DNA of 41,513 bases. Source: Accumulibacter sp. GTDB taxonomy: Bacteria; Pseudomonadota; Gammaproteobacteria; Burkholderiales; Rhodocyclaceae. The first letter of the stretch is position 1. Every line of letters begins with the position of its first letter. Positions 12,772 to 16,716 of the stretch are shown piece after piece. The position numbers and the translations under genes were made by a program. The notes under the pieces are model-generated. The model saw only the letters and a list, made by a program, of their open reading frames with translations, had not been told where the DNA came from and did not search any database. The stretch is from assembly GCF_023806565.1 (NCBI RefSeq), contig NZ_JAMTDV010000020.1:1-41513 (forward strand), given 5' to 3'.

Positions 12772-13038
12772 TCAGAAGAACTGCTTTGCGAAGTTGGCAA
12801 TTGCCAGACCCAGCACCGCCCCAAGCATCCACTTGACCAAGGTGAGCTCGCCGGAGACTTTCGCGTCGAGATGGTCGAACCGGTTCGCCAAGTGCTCGAT
12901 GTTGTGTGGAGTCGCCACCTCCGAAGTCTGCGTAGCCACCGATAACGCAACCGCCTCAGCCCTGGTGTGCGCCTCGGGTACTCACGCAGCGATGAGCTGT
13001 TCCACAGACTTCAACGTATCGAGAGTCACCGTCGCCAT
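12772..13038 (-). pseudogene. DUF1640-type coiled-coil gene with a premature stop
   Basis: From the ATG at 13038 the frame reads MATVTLDTLKSVEQLIAA, then TGA (12982-12984), then VPEAHTRAEAVALSVATQ onward to LVKWMLGAVLGLAIANFAKQFF and the final stop. The full 88-codon frame matches the DUF1640 pattern: N-terminal 'TLKFVexL..AGVP', a central coiled coil (HLANRFDHLDAKV) and a C-terminal membrane helix. The internal TGA stands where relatives carry glycine (GGA), so one G-to-T change explains it. The rest is undamaged, which suggests a recent loss or a sequencing error. The family is of unknown function and common in betaproteobacteria. Confidence 0.8.
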
Positions 13039-13108
13039 AATAGTGGACATAGCGCGAAGCGAGCGCGCCAAGAATGGCCGTTTGTAGAATGCACGGGCGC
13101 GCCTCTTC

Positions 13109-13978
13109 TCAACGCTGCGCGACCTCGCCGGCGACGGGAGGCGCCTCGCTCCCCCGAGGCCGCTTGTAGCGATTGTAGCCCCAGAGGTACTGCTCGGGGC
13201 ACTGGCGGATCAGATGCTCGATTTCGTGGTTGATCTGTTGCGCACGCTCTTCGATCGTCCCGCAGATCGGCTGCGTTGGCTGCTGCAGATGGAAGTGATA
13301 GCCGGCACCGCCCGGCAGGCGCTCGGCCCAGACCATGATCACGCTGGCGCCGCTTTCGGCCAGTCGCGCCGCCAGGGTCATGGTGTAGGCCGGCTTGCCG
13401 AAGAAGTCGAGCCAGCGTCCTTCGCCCGCCTTGGGGGCCTGATCGGGCAGCATGCCGACTGCTTCGCCGCGCTTGAGCGCCTTGAGCAGGCTGCGCACCC
13501 CGGACAGGTCGGCAGCAGCGATATGCAGTTGCTCGCGCGCCCGACCGGCTTCGATCATCGCTTGCAGCCAGGCCTGCCGCGGCGGCCGGTAAAGGACCGT
13601 GATCGGGGCATGGGTGGACAGGTACTGCGCAGTGACCTCGAAGCAGCCGAGGTGCGGGGTCAGGTAGAGTATTCCCTTGCCGCGACGGGTAGCGGCCTCG
13701 ACCAGATCCCAGCCCGACACCTTGACGACCCTTGCCGCGGTCTCGGCGAGCGGCCGCAGCCAGATTTTCGCCAGTTCCAGTGCGCCCTTGCCCACTTCGG
13801 CGACGGCGCGGGCGTGAACACGCCTGGCCTCGTCGTCGCCGAGCGCGAGCTGCAGGTTCTCGCGCAGGTGGCGACGGTAGGTCGGCGAAAACAGCCAGGT
13901 CAGCCAGCCGAGAAATGCGCCGAGAGCATGCAGCCAGGAAAGCGGCAGGTGGCTGAGAAGACGGAAGACGGTGAGCAC
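13109..13978 (-). CDS. lpxL: Lipid A biosynthesis acyltransferase (LpxL/HtrB family)
   Basis: Transfers a secondary acyl chain onto Kdo2-lipid IVA at the inner membrane. The product is about 289 residues from the GTG at 13978, starting VLTVFRLLSHLPLSWLHALG with the usual N-terminal membrane helix. The catalytic motif is TPHLGCFE, an H-x4-E variant of the family's H-x4-D. Downstream conserved blocks are MLPDQAPKAGEG, WLDFFGKPAYT and the C-terminal PEQYLWGYNRYKRPR. An ATG at 14062 would extend the protein by 28 unfamiliar residues, and it overlaps the metK promoter on the other strand, so I prefer the GTG. It is divergent from metK. Function as LpxL rather than LpxM is inferred. Confidence 0.88.
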   Translation of the reverse strand: MLTVFRLLSHLPLSWLHALGAFLGWLTWLFSPTYRRHLRENLQLALGDDEARRVHARAVAEVGKGALELAKIWLRPLAETAARVVKVSGWDLVEAATRRGKGILYLTPHLGCFEVTAQYLSTHAPITVLYRPPRQAWLQAMIEAGRAREQLHIAAADLSGVRSLLKALKRGEAVGMLPDQAPKAGEGRWLDFFGKPAYTMTLAARLAESGASVIMVWAERLPGGAGYHFHLQQPTQPICGTIEERAQQINHEIEHLIRQCPEQYLWGYNRYKRPRGSEAPPVAGEVAQR

Positions 13979-14025
13979 GTGCTGATCCGGTCGTGACAAA
14001 GTTGGCAACAGCTGGTGCAAAGGCT

Positions 14026-14055
14026 TTGACCAGCCGGCAAAGGAAAAAATATAAT
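14026..14055 (+). promoter_or_regulatory. Sigma70 promoter of metK
   Basis: TTGACC (14026-14031), an 18-base spacer and a perfect TATAAT (14050-14055) put transcription start near 14062. That creates a leader of about 140 bases before the metK GTG. Confidence 0.75.
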
Positions 14056-14061
14056 TATCCA

Positions 14062-14201
14062 TCCGCCGAGTTAATCAGGACAACTTGCAGGGCGGAGGAG
14101 CCGCAGGAGCGGTCACCAAATACTGCTAAAGCGTCGTCTGCTCAAACCCCGGAGCCGGCTACGCGGCCGTTTCGGGGTTTTTCATTGGGAGCAGACCTAG
14201 C
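14062..14201 (+). promoter_or_regulatory. metK leader RNA: candidate attenuator or riboswitch
   Basis: The predicted 140-nt leader can form CCGCC/GGCGG (14063-14067 with 14091-14095), CCGC-AGGA-GCGG (14101-14112) and a possible GCAG/CTGC closure (14087-14090 with 14123-14126). It then forms an intrinsic terminator (14144-14182). GTCTGCTC (14136-14143) is complementary to GAGCAGAC (14189-14196) across the terminator and covers part of the metK Shine-Dalgarno GGGAG (14187-14191). Both termination and ribosome-site masking are therefore possible. The bases TGCTAAAGCG (14124-14133) recall the 3' part of SAM-II class RNAs, but I cannot fit the whole consensus, so I do not assign a class. Confidence 0.55.
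14144..14182 (+). terminator. Intrinsic terminator inside the metK leader
   Basis: AAACCCCG (14144-14151) pairs with CGGGGTTT (14173-14180), with an inner GCCG/CGGC stem, and is followed by a T-run ending at 14182. It lies between the metK promoter and the metK start on the same strand. On the other strand it lacks a T-run. Confidence 0.8.
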
Positions 14202-15368
14202 GTGAGCAAAGAGTACCTTTTCACTTCGGAATCGGTTTCCGAAGGGCATCCGGACAAGGTTGCCGATCAGATTTCCGATTCCGTCCTTGACGCCATTCTG
14301 GCCGAAGATCCCCCCGCGCGGGTCGCCTGCGAGACTCTGGTGTCGACCGGCCTGGTCGTCATCTCGGGCGAGATCACCACCAAGGCGCACATCAACTACC
14401 GTGAAATCGCACAGGATACGGTTCGTCGCATCGGCTACGACAACTCCGAGATCGGTTTCGACTACAAGAGCTGCGCCATTCTCACGGCAATCAACCGGCA
14501 GTCGCCGGATATCGCGCAAGGGGTCAATGAGGGACAGGGAATCGATCTCGACCAGGGCGCCGGCGACCAGGGACTGATGTTCGGCTATGCGTGCAACGAA
14601 ACGGCAACGCTGATGCCGCTGCCCATCCATTACGCGCACCGCATCATGCAGCGGCAAGCCGAGGTACGCCGGGACGGTCGTCTGCCCTGGTTGCGCCCCG
14701 ACGCCAAGAGCCAGCTGACCGTGCGCTACGTCGACGGCAAACCGACGTCGATCGACACCATCGTCGTGTCGACGCAGCACGATCCCGACGTCTCGCATGC
14801 GCAAATCTCCGAGGCAGTGATCGAGGAAGTCATCAAGCCGGTCCTGCCAAAGGAACTGCTGACCGCCAACACCCGCTATCTGGTCAACCCGACCGGGCGT
14901 TTCGTCGTCGGCGGCCCGCACGGTGACTGTGGCCTGACCGGGCGCAAGATCATCGTCGATACCTACGGCGGTGCCGCTCGCCACGGCGGCGGTGCGTTTT
15001 CCGGCAAGGACCCGTCCAAGGTCGATCGCTCGGCAGCCTACGCCGCACGCTACGTGGCGAAGAATGTCGTCGCCGCGGGTCTCGCCGAACGTTGCGAAGT
15101 TCAGGTCGCCTACGCAATCGGCGTCGCGCGCCCCGTCTCGCTGATGGTCAATACCTTCGGCACCGGCCGGATCAGCGACGAACGGATCGTCGAACTGATC
15201 AGCAGAAACTTCGACCTGCGCCCGAAAGGCATCATCCAGTCGCTCAACCTGTTGCGCCCGATCTACCGAAAGACCGCGGCGTATGGTCACTTCGGTCGCG
15301 AGGAACCCGAGTTCACCTGGGAAGCGACCGACAAGGCGGCGACTTTGCGCGCGGAAGCTGGCCTCTAA
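14202..15368 (+). CDS. metK: S-adenosylmethionine synthetase
   Basis: Makes S-adenosylmethionine from methionine and ATP in the cytoplasm. The product is 388 residues and starts with [29 protein letters not shown]. It shows the ATP-binding GHPDK, the methionine-loop region [20 protein letters not shown] with the hallmark GAGDQG, and the P-loop-like [16 protein letters not shown]. Length and order match MetK without gaps. GGGAG stands 10 bases upstream of the GTG. Expression is probably controlled by the leader hairpins described separately. A terminator follows the stop. Confidence 0.97.
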
Positions 15369-15387
15369 GGCAGCAAGGCGCACACCA

Positions 15388-15411
15388 GAGGGGCCGACGG
15401 CCCCTCGTTTT
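15388..15411 (+). terminator. Rho-independent terminator after metK
   Basis: GAGGGGCC and GGCCCCTC form a perfect 8-bp stem with a 3-base loop, followed by GTTTT, 20 bases after the metK stop. Confidence 0.85.
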
Positions 15412-15477
15412 GCGGCCGAACGCGGAGCGGTGTAGACTGGCCGTCCGCAAATCTGCTGCGCCAGTCACCACATCGCC

Positions 15478-16716
15478 ATGCTCAAACGAATCCGCGTCGA
15501 ACAACTCAGGGTCGGCATGTATCTCAAGGAGTTCTGCGGATCCTGGATGGAACATCCGTTCTGGCGCTCATCCTTCGTCATCACCGACGCGAAGGATATC
15601 GATGCGATCCGCGCGAGCAGCATCAAGGAAGTGTGGATAGACAGCACCAAGGGCATGGATCTGCCGACGGCCGAGAGGGCGGTTTCCATCGCCGAAGCGC
15701 AGGCACAAGTCGATGCAGAACTCGCCAGCGCAGCCAGCCAAGTGCGCGAAATCGAGCGCGTGCCGAGCTCTGTCGAGTTCGCACGCGCAGCGAAGATCGT
15801 CGCCCGCTCGCGGCAGGCGGTCAAGTCAATGTTCGAGGAAGCGCGCATGGGCAGGGCGATAGACGCTCCTGGCGTGCAGAGAATCGTCGAATCGATTTCC
15901 GACTCGGTAAGCCGCAACCCCGGTGCCCTGATCAGCCTGGCGCGCCTGAAGAATGCCGACGACTACACCTACATGCACTCGGTAGCCGTCTGCGCGCTGA
16001 TGACCGCACTCGCCAGACAGCTCGGGCTCGACGACGTGCAGACCCGTTCGGCGGGCATTTCCGGCCTGCTGCACGACCTGGGCAAGGCGGCAATGCCAAT
16101 CGAAGTTCTCAACAAGCCGGGGAAGCTGACCGACGAGGAATTCGCGATCATCAAGTCGCATCCCCGGGAAGGTCATCGCATGCTGCTCGAAAGCGGCAAC
16201 GCCGAATCGGTGGCGCTGGACGTCGTTCTCCACCACCACGAGAAGATCGATGGCTCGGGTTACCCGGAAGGACTGCGGGGCGAGGAGATCAGCCTCTTTG
16301 CCAAAATGGGCGCGGTCTGCGACGTTTACGACGCGATCACCTCGAACCGCCCGTACAAGAGCGGCTGGGACCCCGCCGAGTCACTGCGCAAAATGGCTGA
16401 ATGGAGCAATGGCCACTTCGACCCGGCCATCTTTCAGGCCTTCGTCAAGAGCATCGGTATCTACCCGATCGGGTCACTGGTCCTGTTGAGCTGTGGGCGG
16501 CTCGGCGTCGTCATCGAACAGGGCGGCAAGTCGCTGCTCACCCCGCACGTCAAGGTATTTTTCTCGACCCGTGCCCAGGTGCGCATCGTGCCGCAGGTCG
16601 TTGACCTGGCGCAACCTGCGTGCAAACTCAAGATCGTCAGTCGGGAAGACCCGACCAAATGGAACTTCCCCGATCTCGACGAAATCTGGTCGGGGCTGGC
16701 AGGCGTGCGCAACTGA
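15478..16716 (+). CDS. HD-GYP domain cyclic-di-GMP phosphodiesterase with DUF3391
   Basis: Predicted to hydrolyse cyclic di-GMP. The product is 412 residues. Residues 1 to about 130 match the DUF3391 region (MLKRIRVEQLRVGMYL... is its usual opening), with a helical linker. The HD-GYP domain follows, with a metal-binding HDLGK near 199, KSHPREGH, HHEKIDGSGYP near 252, and the F-A/V-x-V-x-D-x-Y-D-A-I block GAVCDVYDAITSNRPYK. All the metal ligands I can check are present, so it is likely active. There is no signal peptide or membrane helix, so it is cytosolic. It sits alone after the metK terminator. Confidence 0.92.
   Translation: MLKRIRVEQLRVGMYLKEFCGSWMEHPFWRSSFVITDAKDIDAIRASSIKEVWIDSTKGMDLPTAERAVSIAEAQAQVDAELASAASQVREIERVPSSVEFARAAKIVARSRQAVKSMFEEARMGRAIDAPGVQRIVESISDSVSRNPGALISLARLKNADDYTYMHSVAVCALMTALARQLGLDDVQTRSAGISGLLHDLGKAAMPIEVLNKPGKLTDEEFAIIKSHPREGHRMLLESGNAESVALDVVLHHHEKIDGSGYPEGLRGEEISLFAKMGAVCDVYDAITSNRPYKSGWDPAESLRKMAEWSNGHFDPAIFQAFVKSIGIYPIGSLVLLSCGRLGVVIEQGGKSLLTPHVKVFFSTRAQVRIVPQVVDLAQPACKLKIVSREDPTKWNFPDLDEIWSGLAGVRN

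Follow-up and report, generated by a model that had tools for sequence, protein, structure and literature searches.

The window, by which we mean the whole 41,513-nucleotide stretch analysed here, carries on its plus strand a metK gene for S-adenosylmethionine (SAM) synthetase (14202-15368, GTG start) with the Pfam S-AdoMet_synt N, M and C domains; in this 3.7-Mb genome metK is most similar to Accumulibacter records. The gene is divergent from one for a lipid A acyltransferase, and its 3' neighbour has DUF3391 and HD domains. The longest open reading frame of the acyltransferase (13109-14062, minus strand) starts inside helix P1, described below, and overlaps the metK promoter; its true start probably lies further inside this frame. 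The promoter, TTGACC-18-TATAAT at 14026-14055 on the plus strand, matches the consensus at 11 of 12 positions in a promoter scan, and promoter-like sites in 13000-16500 number two compared with a shuffle mean of 0.5 (sd 0.8). Transcription would be expected to start at about 14062, the first base of P1, and TATAAT or TACAAT was seen by eye immediately 5' of P1 also in L002, L010, L029 and L039.

The leader holds an intrinsic terminator (14144-14182, plus strand) with an outer stem, AAACCCCG at 14144-14151 with CGGGGUUU at 14173-14180, an inner hairpin and a U run to 14182; the hairpin is computed at -23.9 kcal/mol with its U tail, and it is absent from the output of a simple promoter/terminator scan of 13000-16500. 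An exact 8-bp complement, GTCTGCTC at 14136-14143 with GAGCAGAC at 14189-14196, encloses the terminator and covers part of the Shine-Dalgarno (SD) sequence UGGGAGC (14186-14192), so that SD and mask together span 14186-14196 of the plus strand. The leader as a whole (14062-14215) folds at -66.6 kcal/mol as compared to -51.3 (sd 4.3) for 200 dinucleotide shuffles, none of which was equally stable (z -3.6). A preliminary description of this DNA had named the consensus promoter, the terminator within the leader and the enclosing complement over the ribosome site, all of which are recovered here, and had mentioned small upstream stems that we can now equate with P1 and P3 of an aptamer-like pseudoknot. 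The pseudoknot itself and an antiterminator strand are additions to that picture.

Positions 14062-14135 can form an H-type pseudoknot on the SAM-II plan, all of it on the plus strand. P1 (14062-14096) pairs UCCGCC (14062-14067) with GGCGGA (14091-14096), and between its arms lie a third strand, GAGUUAA (14068-14074), the P2b 5' strand GAC (14079-14081) and the P2 5' strand UUGCAG (14085-14090). Loop L3 (14097-14122) follows, with a hairpin P3 (14100-14104 with 14109-14113) and an A-rich end, and the pseudoknot 3' strand CUGCUAAAGCGUC (14123-14135) would then supply P2 with 14123-14129, U14127 being left unpaired, and P2b with 14133-14135. The P2 pairings are GCAG/CUGC and GAC/GUC, and the core is GCUAAAG.

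We selected 80 metK loci solely by similarity of the protein: 58 have the motif, its core ending 41-104 bases 5' of the metK protein match, and two more, cut by contig ends, carry part of it. No convincing motif match was obtained in the remaining 20, which include Neisseriaceae, Nitrosomonas, Gallionella and Ferrovum records. The block that recurs before metK, CGCCGAGTTAA..GACAACTTGC(A/G)GGGCG..AAAT.CTGCTAAAGCGTC, is found in records of Accumulibacter, Rhodocyclaceae, Burkholderia/Paraburkholderia/Caballeronia, Cupriavidus, Acidovorax/Polaromonas, Bordetella/Achromobacter and Janthinobacterium/Undibacterium, among others. At the DNA level the leader matched in 76 of 121 genomes, its own among them, and a search of plasmids with it gave no match. 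The covariance model R1, introduced below, matched 183 of 250 genomes, a figure that is not a count of metK-type elements since R1 also detects the usual SAM-II form.

Pair and base counts were made on 129 rows, 101 of them distinct, gathered with a near-match pattern and excluding L081 (the locus's own duplicate), L184, L189, L194, L195 (itself a metK locus), L198 and L199; because the pattern allows few mismatches, conservation counts on these rows are inflated at the positions it covers. Each of 15 examined pairs is standard in 85 to 101 of the distinct rows while the letters vary. For instance, one P2a pair is AU in 59 rows, GC in 37, GU in 3 and unpaired in 2, the next is GC in 89, AU in 10 and another standard pair in 2, and one P2b pair is GC in 82, AU in 15, GU in 3 and unpaired in 1; six of the 15 pairs are nearly invariant and hence carry little information. 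In a separate alignment of 28 short-loop leaders, 97.4% of the cells across the 15 pairs are paired, versus 35-44% in slid controls, and seven of the 15 pairs have changed on both sides. The covariation score of this alignment was reached by none of 500 shuffles and its number of further pair types was unremarkable (333 of 500), figures that are not to be read as probabilities given that the shuffles ignore relatedness. P1 and both pseudoknot helices show covariation. The long L3 loops of relatives fold with at least 4 bp, as hairpin P3, in 99 of 100 cases, and in 86 of the 100 no more than 10% of mononucleotide shuffles are equally stable.

Nothing in the window exceeds the cut-offs of Rfam 15, and a scan of 13950-14300 with E relaxed to 10 brings up no SAM family; specifically, RF00521 (SAM-II), RF01727, RF01826 (which we take to be the SAM-V riboswitch), RF01726 and RF01057 had no match in the window leader. 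Weak matches to mir-133, Bp2_287 and the L2 leader, in 13950-14300 at E up to 10, were far below their cut-offs and were rejected. The SAH riboswitch was likewise rejected as the leader element: four of the 12 relatives scanned (L006, L024, L069 and L070) have RF01057 roughly 0.1-2 kb downstream of the gene, at 47.6-59.2 bits, and the window leader does not contain it. The metK leader of L070 was not reported by Rfam at E 10, and RF00521 gave nothing over its cut-off in the 12 relatives scanned. RF00521 does align in register with the metK leader of L040, scoring 19.9 bits with E 0.01 (gathering cut-off 36).

We built R1 from 28 of 29 short-L3 metK leaders (L130 was dropped), and the window, which lies outside this training set, was detected at 14062-14137 with 52 bits and E 1.1e-11. 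Of 30 over-cut-off SAM-II copies that Rfam recognises in other classes of the phylum, presumably Alphaproteobacteria, R1 detected 26 in the exact place and missed four; E was at most 0.02 for 17 of the 26 matches, 3 of the 39 R1 hits listed were stray, and many of the 30 loci are closely related to each other, so that they do not represent 30 independent tests. From the same order or class R1 detected 10 of 10 SAM-II copies, again in the exact place and only two of them over the Rfam cut-off, including the genome's own copies before metX-metW and metH. On their own contigs these copies give two RF00521 matches, 35.0 and 34.4 bits, just below the cut-off of 36, before metH and metX-metW, and by eye each is then followed by a terminator-like hairpin. 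The reverse model, R2, built from SAM-II of other classes, recognised the leader in 25 of 35 metK sources; these matches were weak (E 0.017 to 8.7) and accompanied by 9 stray hits, and the window leader was not detected. Finally, in another order of the class, L187 has an Rfam-recognised SAM-II before metK (39.2 bits, cut-off 36). In the same setting, L188 has a usual-form SAM-II before metK at 34.1 bits, and both loci have further hairpin-like stretches before the gene.

Given this cross-detection by R1 and R2, the RF00521 match in L040 and the case of L187, we assign the metK element to the SAM-II superfamily, as a branch that escapes the curated model in those leaders that were tested. The preliminary description had seen the layout of a riboswitch and guessed at SAM, and conservation, covariation and homology support both well, but it was too cautious in assigning no known class and in stating that TGCTAAAGCG only recalls SAM-II: TGCTAAAGCG is the SAM-II core, correctly placed in a complete SAM-II-type pseudoknot, and models of metK leaders and of SAM-II detect each other. 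It had held that a direct Rfam match to a described class would remove the novelty, and the leader has no such match. As for the comparison with related metK leaders that it proposed, the pseudoknot and both alternative pairings recur and the helices named above covary, while the U-tract terminator recurs only in part.

We think it probable that the leader is a SAM-II-superfamily riboswitch on the metK mRNA, an OFF switch by which SAM would repress its own synthetase. The computed support for this consists of the pseudoknot, its conservation and covariation, the homology to SAM-II and the alternative pairings that follow; SAM as the ligand, the direction of the switch, its kinetic control and the strength of each step are what we infer. 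The alternatives turn on one switching strand, GCGUCGUCUGCUC (14131-14143, plus strand), which overlaps the P2b 3' strand, contains the SD-masking 14136-14143 and is the 5' strand of the antiterminator. The antiterminator 3' strand, GAGCCGGCUACGC (14152-14164, plus strand), lies within the 5' arm and loop of the terminator, and 11 of its 13 positions pair with 14131-14143. We compared 107 leaders, namely those with a metK start found by script, minus L081, L092, L195 and L197; the family sets are our own grouping, and the Rhodocyclaceae-type set includes a few members of neighbouring families. In all 107 the best antiterminator duplex takes in the GCGU end together with the bases that follow it, examples being GCGUcGYCuGCUC/GAGCcGGYnACGC in the Rhodocyclaceae-type set, GCGUcGCGCC/GGUGCaACGC in Alcaligenaceae and GUCGCAG/CUGCGAC in Oxalobacteraceae. 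Pairing is stronger between cognate strands than between strands swapped across families in the Rhodocyclaceae-type set (-16.9 versus -13.6 kcal/mol) and in Alcaligenaceae (-20.7 versus -12.7), somewhat stronger in Oxalobacteraceae (-14.8 versus -13.3) and Cupriavidus (-17.0 versus -16.1), and no stronger in the Burkholderia and Comamonadaceae sets. Measured against shuffled partners, the antiterminator energy falls in the best 5% for 12 of 63 leaders of the GC-rich Rhodocyclaceae-type set, which is unexceptional. A downstream partner (p over 0.5) is predicted for the switching strand in 104 of the 107 leaders versus 66% of shuffled controls, and in 63 of 63 of the Rhodocyclaceae-type set versus 80%.

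Folding of the growing transcript shows where such a choice could be made. With the RNA free, the antiterminator has a mean pair probability of 0.98-0.99 for ends 14164-14172; with 14123-14135 held, it stands at 0.63 at end 14164, where 0.64 is the maximum attainable since the hold forbids 4 of the 11 antiterminator pairs, and at 0.17-0.31 at ends 14168-14172. From end 14178 the terminator dominates, whether 14123-14135 is held or free, and the choice of strand in the simulated growth thus falls just before terminator closure. In the full-length leader the terminator and mask prevail whether P2 is held or not, and control would therefore need to be kinetic. Under SAM scarcity, the nascent RNA would pair 14131-14143 with 14152-14164, an antiterminator that occupies both the 5' arm of the terminator and the SD-masking strand, so that metK would be transcribed and translated. 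When SAM is plentiful, it would bind the pseudoknot and hold 14133-14135 in P2b; the antiterminator would then lack its outer base pairs and the terminator would form, and in transcripts that read through, 14136-14143 would pair with the SD region. By the P2b hold, termination and the SD mask combined, SAM would repress SAM synthetase.

In the Accumulibacter lineage this is probably a dual platform, acting on transcription and translation. Alternatively, a SAM-II aptamer might control translation only, with the terminator hairpin serving as a mere spacer through which the anti-SD strand reaches the SD, a reading we hold to be rather unlikely but credible. In its favour, the terminator is the least conserved part of the leader, and an automatic test for a hairpin with a U tract was positive in 35 of 63 Rhodocyclaceae-type leaders (19 of 30 in a mainly same-genus subset) and 5 of 44 elsewhere; the SD-mask pairing falls in the best 5% of shuffles in 54 of the 63, an energy that includes the terminator stem pairs, and is unremarkable in Cupriavidus (0 of 3 in the best 5%) and Alcaligenaceae (0 of 6). 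Against a mere spacer stand the strength of the window hairpin with its U tail and the modelled antiterminator, which comes just before hairpin closure. Retaining the dual platform for the Accumulibacter lineage, we infer that in leaders without a U-tract terminator the same strand choice acts on translation.

The binding pocket bears on the ligand. In SAM-V, as described in PMC6061858, the SAM adenine pairs with U47, which touches the third-strand U8, while U9 and U20 face the sulfonium, and the same source reports that the SAM-V core superimposes on that of SAM-II. By our mapping, the counterparts of U9, U10, U19, U20 and U47 are U in 129 of 129 rows, subject to the near-match selection of rows; the ligand-contact bases by which we judged membership of the SAM-II superfamily, two sulfonium-facing U and the adenine-pairing U, are thus kept in the metK element. 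At the counterpart of U8, which lies beside the adenine-binding U, 127 of 129 rows have G, one has U and one has A, a count somewhat inflated as the row pattern allowed two mismatches there; SAM-II has U. This G, the shorter P2b, the added P3 and the usual-form SAM-II-type copies in the same genome could all be accommodated if a SAM-II-derived aptamer had changed its ligand, for example to SAH, methionine or a SAM derivative, and still controlled metK, and spermidine-sensing SAM-I variants are indeed on record (PMC10853860, as far as cited here). The unvarying counterparts of U9, U20 and U47, with the same selection caveat, argue the other way, as do elements of the same type that have U at the variable position (L205, L206, L214, L216 and L217), and we regard a changed ligand as improbable. 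We therefore read the third-strand G as tuning, with SAM still the likeliest ligand as far as such comparisons can suggest. A constitutive leader with a fixed-level terminator and mask, or an attenuator worked by protein or translation, in either case without metabolite binding, would fit the single structure that dominates at full length whatever P2 does, and the aptamer is putative, but against it stands a covarying, conserved pseudoknot homologous to a proven SAM aptamer on a SAM-synthesis gene, and we give it scant credence.

If the riboswitch reading holds, we would tentatively go one step further and speculate, as a possibility that we favour less than its contrary, that the metK-type is a distinct SAM-II/SAM-V subclass, the betaproteobacterial counterpart of SAM-V. 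The third-strand G, P3 and short P2b would then be a tuning peculiar to it, a three-way switching strand would link the control of transcription to that of translation, and genomes would carry it next to the usual SAM-II, in some cases as a tandem, allowing different genes to react to different levels of SAM.

Several further arrangements were observed. Tandem pairs of a usual-form SAM-II and then, 32-249 bases later, a metK-type element occur in L204, L205, L206, L214, L215 and L194, and the tandem arrangement is also present in L198/L216, L207, L208, L212 and L213. A small open reading frame beginning MYDC or MFDC comes next in L194, L202, L204, L205, L206, L214, L215, L217 and L218; it encodes 95-111 aa in the six measured and has no Pfam match in the two tested, and several of these loci have a MATE-type transporter, confirmed by Pfam in L215 and otherwise assigned by eye. 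Elements of the metK type, at 62-77 bits, also stand before genes other than metK (L184, L200, L201, L207, L208 and L216), which by eye are an unknown 143-aa open reading frame in the same-genus sibling L184, ATPase-like genes in L200 and L201, an HD-domain-like gene in L207 and unknown open reading frames in L208 and L216. On the strand opposite SAM-II elements, sub-threshold matches to Bp2_287 (RF02424; 27.6-36.5 bits, cut-off 70) were found in L198, L204, L206 and L215, and in the window the same family matches 14107-14182 of the minus strand at 12.8 bits (cut-off 70). These matches raise the idea that RF02424 may describe the complementary strand of a SAM-II leader and its terminator.

A comparison of some 200 proteobacterial genomes (Leyn et al. 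2014, PMC4239095) left betaproteobacterial metK without a known methionine regulator, and its search for new ones, in the portion of that work cited here, failed; the element described here offers an answer to this stated gap. SAM binding has been shown for SAM-II, with Bordetella among its sequences (Corbino et al. 2005, PMC1273637, in the parts cited), and SAM-II with terminators is reported from alpha- and betaproteobacteria (Barrick and Breaker 2007, PMC2258182, likewise). No report of a betaproteobacterial metK element was recognised by title or abstract in the largely open-access literature searched, and the accessible parts of a 26-genome and a 50-genome motif paper yielded nothing on it. 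With it, SAM-II-type control would reach metK in Burkholderia, Cupriavidus, Bordetella/Achromobacter, Comamonadaceae and Rhodocyclaceae records, a branch that, in the leaders tested, goes unseen by the curated SAM-II model. Since a single genome holds both usual and variant aptamers, their tuning can be tested directly, and the platform would be a compact case in which one strand chooses among pseudoknot, antiterminator and ribosome-site mask.

Among known systems, the SAM/SAH riboswitch (RF01727) shares the position before metK, in Rhodobacterales (PMC2864571, as excerpted), but is another, smaller RNA with no match in the window. The SAM-II long loops family (RF01726) is a SAM-II with enlarged loops; it derives, in the same excerpts, from Bacteroidetes and marine sequences and has no window match either. 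The metXZ RNA element of betaproteobacteria is likewise a pseudoknot with a terminator on methionine genes, described in the cited part of PMC4239095 for metX and metZ only; we take it to be the SAM-II-type element that we see here before metX-metW. SAM-V has the same pseudoknot core and also a P3 hairpin, which SAM-II lacks (PMC6061858, in the parts cited), and it is known in tandem with SAM-II (PMC11508383, likewise); it belongs to another lineage, is not reported by Rfam in the window and acts on translation (PMC6061858), whereas the metK leader has a terminator as well. Shared with SAM-II itself (RF00521, SAM_alpha) are a pseudoknot of P1 and P2, a third strand G-A-N-U-U, an A-rich L3, UUGC pairing with GCUAA around an unpaired U, and a promoter just 5' of P1 with terminators often downstream (PMC1273637, as far as cited). 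The metK element nevertheless differs in GAGUUAA versus GAUUUG, in ACAACUUGC versus forms such as GGCUUGC or CAGCUUGC, and in its score, L040 reaching 19.9 bits and the window not being reported as compared to the RF00521 cut-off of 36; it has a 3-bp P2b, in many members a long L3 with hairpin P3, and as its gene metK, the SAM synthetase itself.
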